This document shows positions 7,366 through 16,923 of a stretch of DNA of 64,000 bases, in pieces. Position 1 is the first letter of the stretch. Each line of letters opens with the position of its first letter. The notes under the pieces were generated by a model. The model was given only the letters and a program-made list of their open reading frames with translations, made no database searches and was not told the origin of the DNA. The translations under genes and the position numbers were made by a program. Source of the stretch: Verrucomicrobiales bacterium (GTDB lineage: Bacteria > Verrucomicrobiota > Verrucomicrobiia > Verrucomicrobiales > V1-33); the NCBI GenBank assembly GCA_018003315.1, contig JAGNEJ010000013.1, forward strand, positions 1-64,000, read 5' to 3'.

Positions 7366-7614
7366 TTTGGAGCCGCTAGAAAAAGGGAATCCGGCCCGGC
7401 GTCAAGCAGGGGTTTGGCCCCCTGGGGCAGCTGCATCCGAGGGGCAGCTCAACGGGATGCGTGGACGGCTTGACCGGCACAGGTTGCGGAGCCAACATGG
7501 CTGGCAGTGAACGCGTCCCGGTGAGCCTTTGCCGGCGGCGGCAGCAGTATCCTGCGCGGGTGGGTTGACCGCGGTCAATGCGTCCGGTGCCGGTTCCGGC
7601 GATGGGTCCATTCC

Positions 7615-8271
7615 ATGAAACCTGCCTTTGTCCTGTGCGCCCTTTCAGTGTTCCTGCTTGTTGTCGGCTGCGATTCTTCCGTTCCGGAGCGGGAGGCTGC
7701 GCAGACCGCGGAAGCAGCAGCCCGCAATGTCCTTCAGCCAGGGGATCGCGTGCCGGATTTTGCCTTCACCAATCATGAAGGGAAGGAATCCTCCCTGGCC
7801 GCGCTGCGTCCCCGGGCGGTGCTGGCGACATTCATTTTCACGCGGTGCACGATGGCGGAGTTCTGTCCGCGGATGTCGGCCAAATTTCGTGAAATGCGCA
7901 ATGCCCTTGATGCGACTGCGCGTCGGGATGGCGTGGAGCTGTTGAGCATCACGCTGGACCCGGAGCATGACACGCCGGCGGAACTGGCCATTTACGCGAA
8001 AGCCCTGAAGGCCACTCCGGGGAGCTGGACCTTTGCGCAGTGCCAAGCGCCGGTGCTCGCGACCCTAAAACAGCAGTTCGGCGTCCGGGCGGAACCTGCG
8101 GCTCCGGACGGAAGCATCGAGCACAATCTGATCACCGCGCTGATCACGCCAGACGGACGGTTGAGAAAAATCTGGGAGGGCAACCGCTGGGGGTCTGCGG
8201 AGGTGATCGCCGAACTGGATGCCATGGAAGCGGCGCCGGTTCGAACCGCTGCGAACCGCACAAACCGTTGA
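7615..8271 (+). CDS. SCO1/SenC-family copper chaperone lipoprotein
   Basis: A 218-residue lipoprotein: the signal ends in a lipobox at Cys19 (LLVVGC). The mature part is a thioredoxin-fold SCO domain. The copper/redox cysteines lie in FTRCTMAEFCPRM, that is C-x5-C rather than the classical C-x3-C; this wider form is familiar to me from PVC-group and related SCO proteins. The conserved distal His is in IEHNLITALITPDG near residue 170. SCO proteins deliver copper to the CuA centre of cytochrome oxidases or act as thiol-disulfide reductases. Its place just before the azurin and the oxidase-like operon fits CuA assembly. A second SCO domain is encoded at 13840. Confidence 0.88.
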   Translation: MKPAFVLCALSVFLLVVGCDSSVPEREAAQTAEAAARNVLQPGDRVPDFAFTNHEGKESSLAALRPRAVLATFIFTRCTMAEFCPRMSAKFREMRNALDATARRDGVELLSITLDPEHDTPAELAIYAKALKATPGSWTFAQCQAPVLATLKQQFGVRAEPAAPDGSIEHNLITALITPDGRLRKIWEGNRWGSAEVIAELDAMEAAPVRTAANRTNR

Positions 8272-8317
8272 TGTACGTCAAAGCAATCCGCCCGTCCCCT
8301 TTCCATTTTCCGCGACC

Positions 8318-8824
8318 ATGAAACCATTGACATTGCTGTTCACCACTGCCCTCGCCATCACCCCCTGCCTCCTCACCAGTTGCGGCAAGAAAGATTCCGG
8401 CGGCGGCGCCTCCTCCACCGAATCCGTCGGCGCAGACGGCGTTCGCACGCTCAAGCTCACCGGCAACGATGCCCTGCAGTACAATGTCAAGGAAATCACC
8501 GCCACACCCGGGGAAAAACTGAAGATTGAAATGACCAATGTCGGCTCGATGCCCAAGGCGAGCATGGCGCATAATTTCGTCCTGCTCCAGGCCATGCCGG
8601 ACGCCGATGTCCAGGCGCTGGCGATGGCCGCCTCCACCAAGCCGACGGAGTATCTTCCCGAGGATCAGTCCAAGATCATTGCCCACACGAAAATGCTCGG
8701 CCCTGGCGAATCGGAGACCCTCACCCTGACTGCTCCCAGTGCGCCTGGCAGCTATCCCTACGTCTGCACGTTCCCCGGACACTTCACGCTGATGCGCGGC
8801 AACTTGGTGGTCAAGGCGAAGTAA
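8318..8824 (+). CDS. azurin-like blue copper lipoprotein
   Basis: A 168-residue lipoprotein (lipobox LLTSC, Cys near residue 19) with a cupredoxin domain of azurin type. The copper ligands are visible: His in MAHNFVLL, then Cys and His in YVCTFPGHF, and Met in TLMRG. Azurins carry single electrons in the periplasm, so it is a plausible electron donor for the CuA subunit encoded at 11546. A longer frame starts at 8219 inside the preceding SCO gene, but the ATG at 8318 begins the signal peptide directly and is preferred. It follows the SCO gene by 46 nt and is probably co-transcribed with it. Confidence 0.9.
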   Translation: MKPLTLLFTTALAITPCLLTSCGKKDSGGGASSTESVGADGVRTLKLTGNDALQYNVKEITATPGEKLKIEMTNVGSMPKASMAHNFVLLQAMPDADVQALAMAASTKPTEYLPEDQSKIIAHTKMLGPGESETLTLTAPSAPGSYPYVCTFPGHFTLMRGNLVVKAK

Positions 8825-8903: not shown

Positions 8904-9800
8904 TCAGGGTCTGTCCATGACAAGGGCCAGCATCAGCGGCATGAGCGTGAACAGCGTGGTGCGGAACAGGGCGCGGGCACGTTGATCCTCCGGCTGGCGC
9001 AGGAACCGCACTGCCATCCCCAACAGCACCACGGCGCAGGCGGTTGCCGTGAAGCCATACCAGGCACCCATGCGTCCCAGCAGCCACGGCAGGACCAGCA
9101 CCAGGGCCAGCAGGGAGGTGTATGCCAGGGACCATCGCGCGGTGCGGTGGCCGGTTTTATCCTCCGCCGGCAGCAGGGGCAGCCCGGCTGCGCGGTAGTC
9201 ATGGCGGTAAATCCACCCGATGGCGAAAAAGTGCGGCATTTGCCAGAACAGCAGCACCACGGAAAGCACCACCGCGGGAGTGGACCAAATGTTTCCTGCG
9301 GCCGCAGACCCCAGCAGCGGCGGCAGCGCCCCGGAAACGGAGCCGACCTCCGTCGCCCAATGGGTCATCCGTTTCATGGGTGTATAAACAAAGCCGTAGA
9401 TGATGCAGATGGCGGCGGCAATTCCGGCGGTGGCGGCACTGAAAACTCCCGCCAGCAAGGCGATGCCCGCCAGGGTCAGCAAAGTGCTCCAGGCCAGCGC
9501 CAGGGTGGGGCTGATCTGCCCCTGGACCAGCGGGCGCTGCCGGGTGCGACCCATGAGCGGGTCGGTATCGCGTTCCCACCACTGGTTGAACGCCAGCGTG
9601 CCGCCTGCCGCCATTCCGGCCCCTGCCAGCAGCAGCACATGTTCCGCCAGTCCGCCGTGTCCCGGCGTCGCCGCAAAGCCTGCCAGTGCGGTGAGGATGG
9701 AGGCGCTGGCCACCCGTGGTTTGGTGAGGGTGAGGAGTGCTCGGGCAGTGAATGGCACCGCACGGGCCAATGGCAGCGCGAATTCGCGGGAGTCAGTCAT
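8904..9800 (-). CDS. ctaB: protoheme IX farnesyltransferase (heme O synthase)
   Basis: UbiA-superfamily integral membrane enzyme that adds a farnesyl group to heme B, giving the heme O needed by heme-copper oxidases. The first Asp-rich motif is NQWWERDTDPLMGRTRQRP, the typical CtaB/CyoE sequence; a second conserved region is DYRAAGLPLLPAED. About seven to nine hydrophobic segments follow. Start: an in-frame codon exists at 9863, but Met at 9800 (MTDSREFALPL) gives a normal 298-residue length. It converges on the azurin gene and diverges from the oxidase-like operon, so it belongs to the same functional block. CyoE is an equivalent name. Confidence 0.93.
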   Translation of the reverse strand: MTDSREFALPLARAVPFTARALLTLTKPRVASASILTALAGFAATPGHGGLAEHVLLLAGAGMAAGGTLAFNQWWERDTDPLMGRTRQRPLVQGQISPTLALAWSTLLTLAGIALLAGVFSAATAGIAAAICIIYGFVYTPMKRMTHWATEVGSVSGALPPLLGSAAAGNIWSTPAVVLSVVLLFWQMPHFFAIGWIYRHDYRAAGLPLLPAEDKTGHRTARWSLAYTSLLALVLVLPWLLGRMGAWYGFTATACAVVLLGMAVRFLRQPEDQRARALFRTTLFTLMPLMLALVMDRP

Positions 9801-10010
9801 GGCGTAGTGGGGATATGCATAGCGCAGCCCACGATGCAATGCCTGCATATTCCTGCAAACCAATGATTACTATTGACCGTCATCAAAGAAGATCGCGCGG
9901 CTCCGCGCCTATGTGCCGCCATGACCGCACTGGACACCCCTCTGACCCTGCACCCCGCCGGATTGCGCACGGGCACAGAGGCGGAAACTGTCGGCAAGCA
10001 GGAGGTGTCC

Positions 10011-11393
10011 ATGCCGCTGCCAACGCGGCAGTGGACTTGGCTGGCGGTGTCCAGTCTGGTGGTGGCCGGGCTGCTGTCGCTGTCCGTGGTGATTGGACGC
10101 ATCCCGGTGGTGTCGCGGTGGATTGGTGATCCGCTCTTCTTCAAACGCTGCCTCGTGGTGCATGTGGATCTTGCGCTCATTGCGTGGTTTTACACCTTTA
10201 TTGCGGGCATTTCGGCCATGCGGACGCCTGGCGAAACACGGGGGCTGGCCCGGTGGGCGCTGCCGGTCTCAGCGGTGGGCCTGGTGCTCATGCTGGCCGG
10301 GGCTGCGGTGCCCGGCGCGATGCCGGTGCTCTCCAACTACATTCCCGTCATTGACCATCCGCTGTTTTATACTGGGCTGGGCGTGTTCTTTGTCGGCGTG
10401 CTGCTGAGCTGTGTGCGCCAGGTCCTGGCACCACCTGCGCCGCTCGCCGGCGGGCTGCCTGCCGATGCTTCTACCGGCCTGCTGGCGGCCGCTCTGGCCG
10501 TGGTCCTGGCAGCGGCAACGTGGGTTTCCGCCCGCAGCGGCCTGCCGCAGGGACTGGACGCCTGGACGAGGGCGGAGTTTTCCACCTGGGGTGCCGGGCA
10601 TGTGCTGCAAGTCGCCAATGTGAGTGCGATGCTGGCGGTGTGGCTCTGGCTGCTGCGCCGCGCAACCGGACTTCAGGTGCTGTCAGGGTGCCAGGCCCGG
10701 GTGCTGTTCACCCTGCTGCTGGCTCCCCATTTTCTCATGCCGCTGCTGACCTGGCGCGGCACCATGAATCCGCTCTACATCGACGGCGCAACGGCATTGA
10801 TGCGCTGGGGCATTTTCCCCGTGGTGCTTGCCGTGTTGTATTTCTCCATCCGCCATCTGCGCCGCAATCGGGAATGGGTGAGCGAGTCCGTGCAGCGCGT
10901 GGCCGTCGCAGGGTTCAAAGCCAGTGCAGCCCTGACCGTGCTGGGAATTGGGCTCGGCGCCTGCATTCGCAGTTCCAACACGCTGATTCCGGCGCATTAC
11001 CACGCCTCCCTCGGTGCGGTGACGGCGGCGTTCATGGCGGGAGCCTATCTCATCATCGAACGCTTTGCCCATGAGGCTGGGCGGACGGAATCCCTGGCCA
11101 AACTGTGGCGCTCCGCCCGCCGCCAGCTCGTGCTCTTTGGCATTGGACAGTCGGTTTTTGCCGTCGGTTTCGGCATCGGCGGCGCCTACGGCCTGGGCCG
11201 CAAGACCTACGCCGGCGAGCAGCATGTGCGCTCCTTCGGCGAACTCGCCGGCATCGGCATCATGGGACTCGGCGGGCTGCTTGCCGTGGCCGCTGGACTT
11301 TGGTTTCTCACACTCGTCATCCGCGAACTGCGCCGGGGCCGGCCCGCGGAGAAGGCCACGCCCCGGCTCATTCCAACACGTCTCATTCCATGA
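10011..11393 (+). CDS. heme-copper oxidase subunit I-like membrane paralogue
   Basis: A 460-residue protein with about twelve hydrophobic segments that aligns by eye with the layout of heme-copper oxidase subunit I. Histidines fall at the expected helices: H51 (helix II, VVHVDLALIAWF), H197 (helix VI, GAGHVLQVANVSAM), H240 (helix VII, LAPHFLMPL, where the usual His-His pair is Pro-His), and H329/H331 (helix X, PAHYHASLGAV). One CuB ligand is thus missing and the residue 4 after H197 is Val. It may bind hemes without a full binuclear centre, or be an assembly or accessory subunit. Upstream in-frame TTG (9873) and ATG (9921) codons exist, but only the ATG at 10011 has a strong Shine-Dalgarno (AGGAGGT at about 10000-10006). 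Its stop overlaps the next start (ATGA). Confidence 0.7.
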   Translation: MPLPTRQWTWLAVSSLVVAGLLSLSVVIGRIPVVSRWIGDPLFFKRCLVVHVDLALIAWFYTFIAGISAMRTPGETRGLARWALPVSAVGLVLMLAGAAVPGAMPVLSNYIPVIDHPLFYTGLGVFFVGVLLSCVRQVLAPPAPLAGGLPADASTGLLAAALAVVLAAATWVSARSGLPQGLDAWTRAEFSTWGAGHVLQVANVSAMLAVWLWLLRRATGLQVLSGCQARVLFTLLLAPHFLMPLLTWRGTMNPLYIDGATALMRWGIFPVVLAVLYFSIRHLRRNREWVSESVQRVAVAGFKASAALTVLGIGLGACIRSSNTLIPAHYHASLGAVTAAFMAGAYLIIERFAHEAGRTESLAKLWRSARRQLVLFGIGQSVFAVGFGIGGAYGLGRKTYAGEQHVRSFGELAGIGIMGLGGLLAVAAGLWFLTLVIRELRRGRPAEKATPRLIPTRLIP

Positions 11394-11533
11394 ATCAGGA
11401 ACCCAAACCACATCCCATCCAGCGACTGATGGACAACCCCTGGCTGCTGCTCGTTCTCGGGCTGCTCATCCCTTTCGTTTCTTACACCGCCTGGGGCTGG
11501 ATCGAACTGCTCTTCACCAAACCCGCACCCTAA
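11390..11533 (+). CDS. small single-helix membrane peptide, subunit IIa-like
   Basis: A 47-residue protein with one membrane helix (PWLLLVLGLLIPFVSYTAWG) and short hydrophilic ends. Its ATG overlaps the TGA of the preceding gene by the ATGA arrangement, a sign of translational coupling, and it ends 12 nt before the subunit II gene. In the Thermus ba3 oxidase operon a similar one-helix peptide (subunit IIa, CbaD) is encoded directly before subunits II and I; the order here is the same. The resemblance is positional and topological, not a recognisable sequence match. Confidence 0.75.
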   Translation: MNQEPKPHPIQRLMDNPWLLLVLGLLIPFVSYTAWGWIELLFTKPAP

Positions 11534-11545
11534 CACACTGCCGCC

Positions 11546-12097
11546 ATGAGTCTCGTCGTTCCTGAAAAAAACTGGTTCCAGGCGCCCGCCGGAGGAGAAC
11601 GCCTCTGGATTGGTCTCGCCCTCGTCTGGTGTTTTGTCCTGAGCGTGATGATGCCGTTCTGGCATTTTCGCGGCAAGCAGAACAGCCGCGGCGAAGCCTA
11701 CAGCATCACGCCGGCTGCCTTCGGTGAGAAGGCGGAGAAGTTCATCGCTGCCAACAAGGTGGGTGAACACAAAGTCACGATCGGGCAGATGCAAATGCCG
11801 CTGCCGCTGGTGGCTCCGCCGCCCGGCGGCGACGCCTACCTGGTGGCGCGCATGTGGTCGTGGTCTCCGGTGCTCAAACTCCGAAAAGGGGAGACCTACC
11901 GGCTGCATCTCAGCAGCATGGACCTCCAGCACGGTTTCTCGCTCCAGCCGCTGAACATGAATTTCCAGGTCGCACCCGGCTATGATCACGTGCTGACCCT
12001 GACTCCGACTTCCAGCGGCGAATTCACCATCGTTTGCAACGAATTCTGCGGCATCGGCCACGACCGCATGATCGGCAAAATCCTCGTCGAAGACTAA
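11546..12097 (+). CDS. CuA-containing oxidase/NO reductase subunit II
   Basis: A 183-residue protein with one N-terminal membrane anchor (LWIGLALVWCFVLSVMMPFW) and a periplasmic cupredoxin domain. The full set of CuA ligands is visible: His in LQHGFSL near residue 131, then CNEFCGIGHDRM near residue 164, giving Cys, Glu, Cys, His and Met at canonical spacing. This domain accepts electrons from a soluble donor such as cytochrome c or azurin and passes them to subunit I. One helix and short length are features of B-type (ba3-like) enzymes. It lies 25 nt before the subunit I gene. Confidence 0.92.
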   Translation: MSLVVPEKNWFQAPAGGERLWIGLALVWCFVLSVMMPFWHFRGKQNSRGEAYSITPAAFGEKAEKFIAANKVGEHKVTIGQMQMPLPLVAPPPGGDAYLVARMWSWSPVLKLRKGETYRLHLSSMDLQHGFSLQPLNMNFQVAPGYDHVLTLTPTSSGEFTIVCNEFCGIGHDRMIGKILVED

Positions 12098-12122
12098 ACT
12101 CCAACCTTCTTAATTTCACATC

Positions 12123-13835
12123 ATGAGTACCATTGCCGCCACCGCCGCGCTCGACGTTCCAGGCGCCGCCGCCCGCAAGTGCGACACCACCGGTCTCCAG
12201 GTCTGCCTCGGAGCCCAAAAGTTCATCAAACTCCACGCCGTTTGCGCGGTTGTCTTTCTGCTGCTGGGGGGCATCGCCGCCATCCTGCTGGCGCTGACCC
12301 GCTGGCAGGCGGTGCACCTGCTCCCGGTGGACTGGTTCTACCGCATTCTGACCTTCCACGGTCTGAACATGCTCATCTTCTGGATTCTTTTCTTTGAAGT
12401 CGCCATCCTCTACTTCGCCTGCACCATCCCGTTGAACTGCAAACTGTATTCCAACAAAGTCGCCTGGGTGGGCTTTCTGATGATGCTGGTCGGCGCCTGC
12501 CTGGTGGACTATGCCATTCTGGTTGAAAAGAAGGCCGACGTGATGATGACCAGCTATCTTCCGCTGCTGGCCTGCCCGAATTTCTATCTGGGCATCATCC
12601 TCGTGGCGGTGGGTACGCTGATCGGAGTTTACAACTTCTTTGCCACTCTCTACATCGCAAAACGGGACAAAACCTATGAAGGGTCTATGCCGCTGGTGAC
12701 CTTCGGTGCCCTGGCTGCGGCCATCATCGCCGTCGCCACGCTGCTGCACGGAGCCATTGTGATGATTCCCACCTACACCTTCTCCATGGGATGGACCGCG
12801 CAGCCGGATCCGCTGTGGTACCGCATGATCTGGTGGGGCCTGGGCCACATGTCCCAGCAGGTCAACGTCTGCGCGATGGTTGCGGTGTGGTATCTCATCG
12901 GATTCCTCGCCACCGGGGCGAAACCGGTGAACGAAACGGTCTGCCGCGGGGCGTTTGTCCTCTACATTCTGTTCATCAACCTCGCCTCGGCACACCACCT
13001 GCTCGTGGACCCCGGCGTCAGCGCCACCTGGAAAATCTGGAACACCAGCTACGCCATGTATCTCGCCGTGCTGGCCTCCATGATCCACGCCTTCACCATT
13101 CCTGCGTCCATTGAAGTGGCGATGCGGAAAAAAGGCCACAACAAGGGCCTGTTCGGCTGGGTGATGAAGCTGCCGTGGCGCAATCCAGCCTTTGCCGCGT
13201 TCATCCTCTCGTTGCTGATCTTCGGATTCATCGGCGGCATCACCGGAGTGACGCTCGGCACCCAGCAGATCAACATCAGCGCCCACAACACCCTGCGCAT
13301 CACCGGCCACTTCCACGCCACGGTCGTCGGCGGCACCACGCTGGCGTTCATGGGGCTCGCCTATTATGTGATTCCGCTCATTTTCAGGCGCGATTTCGTG
13401 TTCCCGAAACTGGCCCGCATTCAGCCCTGGCTGTTTGGCGGAGGCATTTTGCTCGTCTCGCTGGGAATGTCCTTTGCCGGCTCCCTGGGCGTCGCCCGCC
13501 GCGTGCATGACATCGAAAACGCCGGGATCTACGGTCCGGCCACCCATCTTTTCCTCGCCATCATGGGTGTCGGGGCCACCATTGCCGTCACGGGACTGCT
13601 GCTCTTCTGCGTGCTTTGTGTGGGCACGCTGCTGGCCGGCAAGCGCAATGAAGGCCGCCCCATGGAAGACTGGGGAGTGGCTACGGCCACGGCGGACGCC
13701 CCCGGGGAAAACATTGCGCACGTCCACTGGGCCATGCGCGGCACCATCGCGCTGACGCTCATCTTCCTGGCATGCTTTGCCGTGTATTACTTCGCCAACT
13801 GGAAGGCGCTCTCCGACATGTGGCATGTGAAATGA
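12123..13835 (+). CDS. heme-copper oxidase superfamily subunit I, B-type-like (possible NO reductase)
   Basis: A 570-residue catalytic subunit with about thirteen membrane segments. All six metal-ligand histidines are present: H79 (FHGLNML) and H398 for the low-spin heme, H396 (TGHFHATVVGG) for the high-spin heme, and H242, H291 and H292 (GLGHMSQQVN; SAHHLLVDPG) for CuB. In oxygen reductases of A and B type the helix VI His is followed at +4 by the cross-linked Tyr. Here that position, 246, is Gln. Loss of this Tyr is a mark of nitric oxide reductases in this superfamily, including B-family-derived CuA-dependent NORs. No subunit III gene follows. Annotation as a terminal oxidase is therefore uncertain. 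Confidence 0.9.
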   Translation: MSTIAATAALDVPGAAARKCDTTGLQVCLGAQKFIKLHAVCAVVFLLLGGIAAILLALTRWQAVHLLPVDWFYRILTFHGLNMLIFWILFFEVAILYFACTIPLNCKLYSNKVAWVGFLMMLVGACLVDYAILVEKKADVMMTSYLPLLACPNFYLGIILVAVGTLIGVYNFFATLYIAKRDKTYEGSMPLVTFGALAAAIIAVATLLHGAIVMIPTYTFSMGWTAQPDPLWYRMIWWGLGHMSQQVNVCAMVAVWYLIGFLATGAKPVNETVCRGAFVLYILFINLASAHHLLVDPGVSATWKIWNTSYAMYLAVLASMIHAFTIPASIEVAMRKKGHNKGLFGWVMKLPWRNPAFAAFILSLLIFGFIGGITGVTLGTQQINISAHNTLRITGHFHATVVGGTTLAFMGLAYYVIPLIFRRDFVFPKLARIQPWLFGGGILLVSLGMSFAGSLGVARRVHDIENAGIYGPATHLFLAIMGVGATIAVTGLLLFCVLCVGTLLAGKRNEGRPMEDWGVATATADAPGENIAHVHWAMRGTIALTLIFLACFAVYYFANWKALSDMWHVK

Positions 13836-13839
13836 CATC

Positions 13840-14826
13840 ATGATCGCAGCAGCCCCCTGTTCTGAAAATGAATCCACGAGCCTGCGCCGGTTTTTTTCCG
13901 GCGCAGGCTTTCCAGCCTGCCTCATCGCTGGCACGGTGGTGTATGAGGCTTTCCTCATCACCGTGATCTTCTGGCCGGAGGGGGCCGGACCGTGGGGACA
14001 GTTCAGCCAGGATTTCAAGCGCTGGTGTTTCAGCTACGACCCGCGCACCGGCGGCATGTCCTGGGCCGCGGTCTGGGTCATGCTGGCAGAGCCCCTGTTC
14101 CTCGCCTCCATCACGGCATTTCTCTGGCGGCGCACCCTGCGGCCGCTGTTCACCCTGCGCGGACTGGCGGCGCACTGGAAGGCGATGGCTGGAGGCGGGC
14201 TTGCGGCGCTGCTGGCCGCAGGGACCCTGTTTTTCTGGGGCAACCGCGATGCGGAGGCGGCTGAAAAACCGCTGCCCTTTCCCGGTGAGCGCATCCGCAC
14301 GCAGCTCGAACCGCCCGCATTTGCCCTCACCGATCACCAGGGCGCACCCGTTTCCCTGGAGCAGCTCAAGGGGCGCGTGGTGCTGGTCACCGGAGTCTAT
14401 GCCACCTGTTCCACCGCCTGCCCGCAGATCCTGCGCGAGGTGAAAAACCTCATGGATGCTCTGCCCGCGGACCTGCGCGGAAATTTCTCAGCCGTCGCGC
14501 TCTCACTCAATCCGGAGTACGATTCCAGCGAATACATGTCGGCCATCGCTTCGGCCTATGCGTTTCCCTATCCCGGTTTTCATTATGCCAACGGGGACCC
14601 AGTCGTGATGCATGATCTGCTGTCCCGCTTTCAGTTTGCTCCGATCAAAAACACGGAAACCGGAGCCATTGACCACGCGAACCTCTTCATTCTGCTCGAT
14701 GCGAAAGGGCGCATCGCTTATCGTTTCAATCTGAGCGAACGTCACCTGCCGTGGCTGCATCAGGCCACCCTGGACCTGTTGAAGGAAGCGGTGGCACCGA
14801 CGCTCGTCGGTCTTCACGGCAAATAA
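13840..14826 (+). CDS. membrane-anchored SCO-domain protein
   Basis: A 328-residue fusion. Residues about 25-145 form a membrane domain with three hydrophobic segments; residues about 155-320 form a SCO/thioredoxin-like domain with CSTACP (C-x3-C) near residue 190 and the distal His in AIDHANLFILL near residue 280. Role: probably copper insertion or thiol reduction for the CuA subunit of the same operon. The gene starts 4 nt after subunit I and its stop directly abuts the next ATG. Codons 14-27 contain a perfect inverted repeat (listed separately) that encodes SGAGFPACLIAG, which looks like a dispersed palindromic repeat translated into the N-terminus; the ancestral start may have been downstream. 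Confidence 0.85.
   Translation: MIAAAPCSENESTSLRRFFSGAGFPACLIAGTVVYEAFLITVIFWPEGAGPWGQFSQDFKRWCFSYDPRTGGMSWAAVWVMLAEPLFLASITAFLWRRTLRPLFTLRGLAAHWKAMAGGGLAALLAAGTLFFWGNRDAEAAEKPLPFPGERIRTQLEPPAFALTDHQGAPVSLEQLKGRVVLVTGVYATCSTACPQILREVKNLMDALPADLRGNFSAVALSLNPEYDSSEYMSAIASAYAFPYPGFHYANGDPVVMHDLLSRFQFAPIKNTETGAIDHANLFILLDAKGRIAYRFNLSERHLPWLHQATLDLLKEAVAPTLVGLHGK
13879..13920 (+). repeat. REP-like palindrome inside a coding sequence
   Basis: Positions 13879-13890 (AGCCTGCGCCGG) are the exact reverse complement of 13898-13909, separated by seven T. The right arm can alternatively pair with AGCCTGC at 13914-13920 across TTCC, so two mutually exclusive hairpins are possible. The GCAGGCT/AGCCTGC theme resembles dispersed palindromes common in Verrucomicrobia and Planctomycetes genomes. 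It lies 39 nt into the SCO-fusion gene and stays in frame. Confidence 0.75.
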
Positions 14827-16923
14827 ATGAGCGCACTAGTCCCCCCCGAAACCGCGCCTGCACAAAGCGAGGCGGCCCCGCTGCCTCCCAAAGCACGCTT
14901 CGAAAAACTCCTCATCCGCGGCGACAATCTGCTGGCCCGCCTCGACGGGTGGATGCAGCGCTGGCTGCCCGCAGAGGACAACCCGCTCAACCAGACCGGG
15001 CGGGCCGCCAACCTGGCGCTGATCGTGGCGGTGATCTCCGGGGTGCTCATGCTCATTTGGTATTCGCCCAGCGTGCACCTGGCGCACGGCAGCATGGCGG
15101 CCATCCATGGGAGGACTCCCGGTGGCATTATGCGCGCCCTGCACCGTTACAGTTCAGACCTGACCATGCTGTTCCTGGCAGTGCATGCCATGCGGATGTT
15201 CTTTGCGCGGAAATTTACCGGTCCGCGCTGGCTGGCCTGGACCACTGGTGTGGTGTTGCTCGCCATCGTGTGGTTCATCGGGTGGACGGGGTTCTGGCTG
15301 GTGTGGGATCAGCCCGCACAGCAGGTCGCGGTGAACTCCATGATGTTTCTCGACAGTCTGCCCATTTTTGGCGAGCCCATGAGCCGACTTTTCGTGGCCG
15401 ACCGGCTCATTCCCAGCCTGCTGTTTTTTGTGGTCTTCTTTTTGCACATGCTGCTGCCGCTGATGATCGCCGTCGGCCTGGTGCTGCACCTGGCGCGTCT
15501 GAGCCGCGTCAAGCTGTTGCCCAGCCGCCAGCTTGCGGTCGCGCTGTGCATCGGCCTTGTCCTTGCTGCCATCGTGGTGCCCGCGCCGCTCGATCCGCCG
15601 GCGCAAATGAATGTCAAAGCCGCCAGTTTCACCGTCGATGCCTGGTATCTCACGCCGCTGGCGCTGACGCTGCGGTTCGGGCAGGCCGGCATGTGGCTGG
15701 GTCTGGGCGCCACCGCTGCCTTTGCTGCGGTCCCCTGGCTGCTGGGAAAACGCACGCGCCGCATCGTTTCCGAGCGCGACGACAAGCCGGTCACTCCCTG
15801 GCAAACCAGCGTTCGCCAGCCGCGCTGCCACGCCTGCACGCAGTGTGTACAGGACTGCCCGTTCGATGCGGTGAAAATGATCCCCCGCACCGATGGCAAA
15901 TCGGCGTTCGACTCCCGAGCCTGGGTGGATCCCGACCGCTGCACCGGCTGCGGTGTCTGTGTCGGTTCGTGCGACTCCGAGGCCATGAGTTTCACCTGGT
16001 TCGACGTGCTGGAGCAGGAGGCCCGCATCATGGCCGGGATCAAGCGCAACGGCACGCAGCACCTTGCCCTGGTCGCGGGTGACATTGACGGCGGGCTGGC
16101 CCATTTTAACAAGGCGCAATGGGAAAAGCGCCTCCCTGGCTACGCCGTGGAATTTGTGCCCACGTCCGGATGGGTGCGTCCGAAGTTCGTGGAAAAAATC
16201 CTGCATGACGGCCTGCGTGGCGTGCTCATCGTGCGTGACGCCCGTGTCGAATCCGCCGCCCGCGACGGCAACCGCTGGGTGGCCATGCGTTTGAGCGGCG
16301 AACGCAAACCGGTCTTCCGCCCGCAGCGGGCCGGCGATGGCCGCTGGCACATCGCCGACTTCACGCCAGGCGATGACGATTCCCTGCGCGCCGCCGCCGA
16401 TGCCTTCCGTGCCGCCTCGTCGCCGCCGCCACTCCGTCCGCTTTCCAAACCCCGGGCCGTCGTGGCCATTGCTCTCATCACCCTGCTCGTCATCGCTGCC
16501 AGCATCGCTCCCAGCCACCTGCAGGTGCCCAACCCCGCCCCGGCCAATCCCGAATTCGTGTTTGCCTTCAAAATCCTCGGCGACATGCAGACGACCACGG
16601 CGCTCGATCCCGCGGAGGAAGCCAAAAAGCCCATCCACATGCGAGGCCGAGTGACGGAAAAACCGCACCGTCATGCCGTGACGATACGCCTCATCATGGA
16701 CGGAAAAGTCAGCGAGCGCACCTTCGAACCCAAAGGCGTCGGGCACGACGGTCCGGCGATCGGCGAATGGCGCGAACCGCTCACGCCGGGGCCGCATTCC
16801 CTCGTGCTGGAAATCCACCGCGGCTCCAGCGAGCCACTGCGCTGGGAAGGCACGTTCGAAGCCCGCGAGCGCCGTCTCCAGGTCATCACCTACGAACCGG
16901 CGGAAGGATTTCGGGTGGAGTAG
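14827..16923 (+). CDS. cytochrome b / 2[4Fe-4S] ferredoxin / MvhD-like fusion
   Basis: A 698-residue three-part redox protein. Residues about 55-310 are a diheme cytochrome b (bc1/b6f N-terminal type) with heme ligand pairs H106/H120 and H207/H221, each 14 apart. Residues 334 to about 390 form a two-cluster ferredoxin: CHACTQCVQDCP and CTGCGVCVGSC. Residues about 405-505 resemble the MvhD/FlpD hydrogenase iron-sulfur subunit (ALVAGDIDGG, VPTSGWVRPKFV, GVLIVRDARVES), but the cysteines normal at PCSG and GCHPGDC are Ser and other residues. A further membrane helix lies near 550-570, followed by an unknown C-terminal domain. It may move electrons between quinol, a soluble donor and the oxidase-like complex. 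Last gene of the operon. Confidence 0.82.
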   Translation: MSALVPPETAPAQSEAAPLPPKARFEKLLIRGDNLLARLDGWMQRWLPAEDNPLNQTGRAANLALIVAVISGVLMLIWYSPSVHLAHGSMAAIHGRTPGGIMRALHRYSSDLTMLFLAVHAMRMFFARKFTGPRWLAWTTGVVLLAIVWFIGWTGFWLVWDQPAQQVAVNSMMFLDSLPIFGEPMSRLFVADRLIPSLLFFVVFFLHMLLPLMIAVGLVLHLARLSRVKLLPSRQLAVALCIGLVLAAIVVPAPLDPPAQMNVKAASFTVDAWYLTPLALTLRFGQAGMWLGLGATAAFAAVPWLLGKRTRRIVSERDDKPVTPWQTSVRQPRCHACTQCVQDCPFDAVKMIPRTDGKSAFDSRAWVDPDRCTGCGVCVGSCDSEAMSFTWFDVLEQEARIMAGIKRNGTQHLALVAGDIDGGLAHFNKAQWEKRLPGYAVEFVPTSGWVRPKFVEKILHDGLRGVLIVRDARVESAARDGNRWVAMRLSGERKPVFRPQRAGDGRWHIADFTPGDDDSLRAAADAFRAASSPPPLRPLSKPRAVVAIALITLLVIAASIAPSHLQVPNPAPANPEFVFAFKILGDMQTTTALDPAEEAKKPIHMRGRVTEKPHRHAVTIRLIMDGKVSERTFEPKGVGHDGPAIGEWREPLTPGPHSLVLEIHRGSSEPLRWEGTFEARERRLQVITYEPAEGFRVE

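Follow-up and report, generated by a model that had tools for sequence, protein, structure and literature searches.

An eNOR-type nitric oxide reductase operon predicted in a Verrucomicrobiales genome, with candidate electron-input subunits

We analysed a heme-copper operon in a 64,000-nucleotide stretch of DNA from a Verrucomicrobiales bacterium (assembly GCA_018003315.1, contig JAGNEJ010000013.1, positions 1–64,000 of the forward strand), hereafter the window. Judged from its sequence, the catalytic subunit I of this operon, designated COX1A, is that of an eNOR and a new member of this named family. We consider it highly probable (about 0.85) that the operon specifies an eNOR-type nitric oxide (NO) reductase regulated by a member of the CRP/FNR family, with a second subunit I-like protein (COX1B) and a cytochrome b/Fe-S protein as likely electron-input additions. 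The original prediction had proposed an undescribed supercomplex reducing NO or O2 with redox input of its own. NO rather than O2 as the substrate gained support; the catalytic core, on the other hand, turned out to be that of eNOR and not an undescribed one.

Active site and family placement of COX1A

COX1A retains all six metal-ligand histidines (H79, H242, H291, H292, H396 and H398). On alignment with the Thermus ba3 oxidase, its Gln246 faces the Tyr of the GHxxxY motif. The Tyr that A- and B-type enzymes carry four residues past the CuB His of helix VI is therefore absent from COX1A, and both the six ligands and the Gln in the position of the cross-linked Tyr of B-family O2 reductases are as originally predicted. 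Relatives of COX1A were drawn from genomes of the phylum, plasmids and GTDB contigs, and 90 were aligned. H79, H242, Q245, Q246, H291, H292 and H396 are invariant in all 90, as is the H-x-x-Q-Q motif of helix VI, and H398 is kept in 88. Fourteen B-type relatives carry Tyr where COX1A has Gln246. The two sequences deviating at H398 have Lys as the residue corresponding to this low-spin heme ligand (GHFK versus GHFH), and one of them is encoded on the Thermus thermophilus plasmid TTHNAR1 (L045, 9983–11668). The CuA ligands of subunit II are invariant in 91 of 91 sequences, and the gene for this cupredoxin subunit, with the ligands complete, lies directly upstream of COX1A, which is the gene order of eNOR.

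The eNOR family is said to go back to Hemp and Gennis in 2008 and to Murali and colleagues in 2024. In terms of the active-site residue, Table A4 of PMC8756737 (after Hemp and Gennis) gives Gln for eNOR, Tyr for O2 reductases, Asn for sNOR and the Bacillus CuANOR, Asp for gNOR, and Glu for cNOR and qNOR; one proton channel is listed for eNOR. The same article defines eNOR by the Gln, covers copies from Chloroflexi and counts one Thermus protein as an eNOR. According to PMC11388526, eNOR has been characterised biochemically, and PMC13274419 names an eNOR for Verruconatronum. Neither the Glu of cNOR and qNOR nor the Asn of bNOR (CuANOR) and sNOR was found at this position of COX1A, where every copy has Gln.

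Two trees were constructed, without reference sequences of bNOR, sNOR and gNOR and without the Rhodothermus eNOR. In these trees the Gln-bearing sequences (COX1A and those of Thermus, Thermomicrobium and Chloroflexota) formed one group with support of 92 and 90, separate from the B-type O2 reductases with support of 99 and 100. The phylogenetic check suggested with the original prediction thus did not place COX1A within the B-type O2 reductases. Over its full length, COX1A is 45–51% identical to plasmid copies from Thermus, Thermomicrobium and Defluviimonas, which were taken to be of the same kind. The copy on TTHNAR1 lies near a gene annotated as nitrite reductase, an Rrf2 regulator and a DUF542 protein.

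Gene content, COX1B and the cytochrome b/Fe-S protein

The genes sit at the positions originally given, and their content was confirmed from open reading frames (ORFs) and domain matches. The features of the cluster are as follows.

7565–7578: FNR/DNR-type box TTGACCGCGGTCAA, 50 nt 5' of the SCO start codon at 7615
7615–8271, plus strand: SCO-family copper chaperone (PF02630, E=4e-17)
8268–8281: FNR/DNR-type box TTGATGTACGTCAA, 50 nt 5' of the likely start of the azurin-like gene (8318)
8318–8824, plus strand: azurin-like cupredoxin lipoprotein (PF00127, E=6e-14); the ORF opens at 8219, with ATG 8318 the likely start
8904–9863, minus strand: heme O synthase (CtaB/CyoE; TIGR01473, 235 bits, above cut-off), divergent from the operon
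9873–9886: FNR/DNR-type box TTGACCGTCATCAA, 5' of the eNOR operon, 48 nt ahead of ATG 9921
9921–11393, plus strand: COX1B, a paralog of heme-copper subunit I that lacks the CuB His pair; 10011 is an alternative start
11390–11533, plus strand: IIa-like peptide of 47 residues with a single helix, kept at the same place in related loci
11546–12097, plus strand: subunit II with a CuA site (H129, C164, C168, H172, M175; CoxB model, E=1e-11)
12123–13835, plus strand: COX1A, predicted catalytic eNOR subunit I (PF00115, E=1.1e-64)
12846–12860, plus strand: codons H242–Q246 (H-M-S-Q-Q) within COX1A, the helix VI eNOR signature
13840–14826, plus strand: membrane-anchored SCO protein (PF02630, E=3e-17); C190, C194 and H279 are kept in relatives
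14827–16923, plus strand: cytochrome b (four His) with two [4Fe-4S] motifs, a weak FlpD-like stretch and a C-terminal domain (PF00033, E=1e-20; Fer4)

While the operon genes are as first described, the cluster reaches further upstream. The upstream SCO, azurin-like and heme O synthase genes were added because they neighbour the operon in some relatives, and the first two also because they share a regulatory box with it. The azurin-like gene adjoins the eNOR operon in three related loci (L031, L032 and L037); its product scored 87.8 bits against the azurin model TIGR02695, below the cut-off of 105.

Concerning COX1B, no Pfam match was found for the protein itself and a profile search of the PDB gave no sequence match, while seven of nine orthologs match PF00115 (best 9e-11). 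Its structural model (predicted local distance difference test (pLDDT) 91.9, predicted template modelling score (pTM) 0.92) matched cbb3, ba3 and cNOR structures with a Foldseek probability of 1.00. Four heme-type His residues, in helix II, helix VI and an HYH motif, are kept in 63 of 63 COX1B sequences. All 63 lack the two CuB-binding His residues of helix VII, which leaves COX1B without the three-His CuB set. In the trees COX1B forms its own group (support 100) that joins eNOR and not the B-type oxidases (99–100), on long branches. Among 388 genomes of the phylum, eight of the nine that have eNOR also have COX1B, and it was missing from all 379 without eNOR, the weaker matches of this search being eNOR or B-type subunits themselves. 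Outside the phylum, it adjoins eNOR in Myxococcota, Balneolota, Spirochaetota, Planctomycetota, Calditrichota, Nitrospirota, Rokubacteria and Oligoflexia. The eNOR loci examined in Thermus, Thermomicrobium, Chloroflexota, Gemmatimonadota and alphaproteobacteria lack COX1B, and none was found on plasmids. We found no description of COX1B in the accessible portions of the eNOR literature outside Murali et al. 2024.

The cytochrome b/Fe-S protein has four His and eight Cys that are invariant in 78 of 78 such proteins, numbers that fit a pair of b hemes and a pair of [4Fe-4S] clusters. Its FlpD-like stretch is a weak match (PF02662, E=0.02). The protein is the sole PF00033 match in the host genome, a draft that is 96% complete, and therefore no cytochrome bc1 was found there. 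The gene also adjoins eNOR where COX1B is missing, as in Gemmatimonadota and Alphaproteobacteria. In one related locus (L037, 5413–7532) it is broken into two reading frames, by a frameshift or a sequencing error.

Gene order and co-regulation are the grounds on which we propose an input role for COX1B and the cytochrome b protein, and a dedicated electron-input module is plausible from the sequences. The genes for a redox input of the enzyme's own, as originally proposed, are present; a physical supercomplex may be proposed from their order. In the most specific form of this proposal, COX1B and the cytochrome b/2[4Fe-4S]/FlpD-like protein would constitute the input module and the whole operon would make a single supercomplex that oxidises quinol (or ferredoxin) and reduces NO, with COX1B, formerly catalytic and stripped of CuB, as a diheme electron carrier. 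The second heme of this carrier would possibly be bound by the His of helix VI together with the leading His of the HYH motif. We regard this form as tentative and rather doubtful.

At somewhat under even odds, COX1B carries no electrons at all and serves solely in assembly or structure, or as a regulator that binds NO or O2. The absence of the CuB His pair is consistent with such a role, as are the dispensability of COX1B in many eNOR lineages and its faster evolution (mean column identity 39%, versus 65% for subunit I). The invariance of its four heme-type His argues in the opposite direction, as a pure scaffold would need none. A comparable structural subunit could be encoded elsewhere in the host genome. 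On contig C90, a CcoN-like protein without the HH pair and other usual His ligands (L010, 8486–10024) is flanked on one side by a gene set resembling alternative complex III and on the other by a set for a CcoO-like protein and an A-type (caa3) oxidase. It is a second example in this genome of a heme-copper subunit I that lacks its metal site, and perhaps serves as a linker.

Regulatory boxes, genome context and alternative readings

The pattern TTGAYNNNNRTCAA was chosen after a first scan of the window for an E. coli-type FNR box with mismatches. The 64 kb contain exactly three such sites, where about 0.2 would be expected; they are at 7565, 8268 and 9873, each ahead of a unit of the cluster. 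Because the pattern was chosen after scanning the window, related loci serve as the independent test. Of 83 related loci, 34, nearly all from Verrucomicrobiota, carry an exact site close to where the operon begins, whereas the remaining sequence of these loci would predict 1.58; some of the 83 are one genome taken twice. The host genome holds 30 sites, compared with three for the reversed control. One lies approximately 170–180 nt ahead of the qNOR gene (contig C41), one between genes for a Crp/Fnr regulator and a TIGR04053 radical SAM protein, and another before a HemN-like radical SAM gene.

In the case of the regulator, the two genes diverge from a single exact box (L174, the host's own contig C86, 9000–13000), and this Crp/Fnr-family protein is a candidate controller of the eNOR operon. 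A TIGR04053 gene is also present near eNOR on Thermus plasmids. Genes reading like Rrf2-family (NsrR-type) regulators were noticed near eNOR in one Gemmatimonadota and one Bacteroidota locus (L114, 6637–7083; L113, 5541–5939). Unlike in Verrucomicrobiota, control of eNOR in these loci is likely to be exerted by an Rrf2-type regulator.

The position of the box bears on the start of COX1B. In many relatives the box is followed after approximately 22 nt by a TAnnnT-like element and then by an ATG 48 nt from the box start. Taking the window and related loci together, the box stands 48–50 nt before the start codon and the TAnnnT-like element approximately 6 nt before the ATG. Such spacing points to transcripts with no leader, or almost none, in these Verrucomicrobiota, and ATG 9921 would be a start of this kind. 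As the box lies 48 nt ahead of 9921, as in many relatives, COX1B may begin here rather than at 10011, the start originally assigned together with the end at 11393, which stands. In favour of 10011, this ATG is preceded by a good AGGAGG.

The host genome also encodes nirK (C27), nosZ (C79; TIGR04246, the Sec-dependent type) and qNOR (C41), and with these and eNOR present, NO is a likely intermediate. Its other respiratory genes are those for an A-type oxidase (C90) and a CcoNO cbb3 fusion (C45). The alternative complex III-like set before the A-type oxidase was identified by NrfD and by reading of the sequences.

We considered whether COX1A could be an unusual B-family O2 reductase, serving low-O2 respiration or O2 scavenging, that lacks the cross-linked Tyr or supplies it from another helix. 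The structures nearest to an AlphaFold2 model of COX1A (pLDDT 81) are ba3 O2 reductases, the CuA and CuB ligand sets are complete, and database names of its relatives read cytochrome c oxidase. Helix VII also has an invariant Tyr281, which precedes the HH pair by ten residues. This is four residues further out than the cbb3 position, six residues ahead of the pair, where COX1A has Ile285 and the 90 relatives have Ile or Leu; the host's own CcoNO does have Tyr there. By alignment, then, no replacing Tyr stands at the A/B or cbb3 position, Tyr281 remains in helix VII, and a Tyr from another helix in place of Gln246 is unlikely. A Tyr shifted to helix VII as in cbb3 was ruled out. Taking into account that Gln is the eNOR signature of PMC8756737, that the trees separate COX1A from B-type O2 reductases, and that the gene context is of the NO type (boxes, nirK, nosZ, qNOR and the Thermus neighbours), we judge an O2 reductase improbable. 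Identity with the Bacillus azotoformans enzyme (bNOR), to which the original prediction had compared the operon, would suit the CuA subunit II and the B-family fold and is scarcely credible; bNOR has Asn at the site (Table A4 of PMC8756737) and had been reported only from Bacillota according to PMC11388526, and we rejected it on this residue.

Several points weigh against an eNOR-type NO reductase with these additions. NO reduction by COX1A is a prediction from sequence, family and gene context, and the genome already has qNOR as a separate gene. Boxes of the same type control O2-limited genes in other bacteria and hence do not prove that NO is the substrate; no exact TTGAYNNNNRTCAA site was found in the nirK and nosZ regions of the genome. 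Support for the eNOR group itself is no higher than 90–92, with bNOR, sNOR and gNOR references outside the trees. Finally, eNORs with neither COX1B nor the cytochrome b gene exist, for example in Thermus, and the basic reaction can therefore do without the companions. As eNOR elsewhere lacks both genes, we regard the two proteins as additions outside the minimal enzyme.

Proposed electron route and comparison with known systems

We propose that the operon is switched on by a CRP/FNR-family regulator of the FNR or DNR/NnrR type. A periplasmic carrier would hand electrons to CuA of subunit II, and gene order and co-regulation make the azurin-like protein the best candidate for this carrier. The electrons would then pass through the low-spin heme (H79/H398) to the heme-CuB site of subunit I (H396; H242, H291 and H292). 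There, with Gln246 in place of the Tyr that O2 reductases use for splitting O2, NO would be reduced to N2O, as the family suggests. The SCO proteins would load copper, and a heme is probably made available by the heme O synthase. As lineage-specific additions, COX1B and the cytochrome b/2[4Fe-4S] protein would most likely deliver electrons to the enzyme, taken either from the pool of quinol or from an Fe-S donor in the cytoplasm.

Annotation of eNOR-type enzymes as cytochrome c oxidases means that N2O-forming capacity is missed in many genomes, and operons of this type occur across Verrucomicrobiota, Myxococcota, Balneolota, Spirochaetota, Planctomycetota and others. What could be new is the combination of eNOR with COX1B and a cytochrome b fusion in one operon. 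If the proposal is correct, the NO reductase brings its own quinol or Fe-S input. COX1B, a conserved paralog without the catalytic copper site that travels with eNOR, would offer a testable example of an oxidase-fold subunit that now serves as electron carrier or scaffold.

Compared with known systems, the operon shares with eNOR the Gln at the Tyr position, a B-family subunit I and a cupredoxin subunit II gene directly upstream, and differs in having COX1B and the cytochrome b/2[4Fe-4S] protein, both missing from the Thermus copies. The Thermus ba3-type B-family O2 reductases agree with the operon in fold, in the six His, in the CuA subunit II and in the IIa-like peptide, but Tyr is replaced by Gln in COX1A, which falls in a separate tree group. 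With the bNOR (CuANOR) of Bacillus azotoformans it has CuA input and a B-family relationship in common, whereas the residue at the site is Asn in that enzyme and Gln in COX1A. As for the cytochrome b part, its best named match is the ExtP cytochrome b of selenite/tellurite-reduction operons (NF040969, 88 bits), but this score is far under the cut-off of 290, and the host protein carries two [4Fe-4S] motifs in the same chain and is linked with eNOR.

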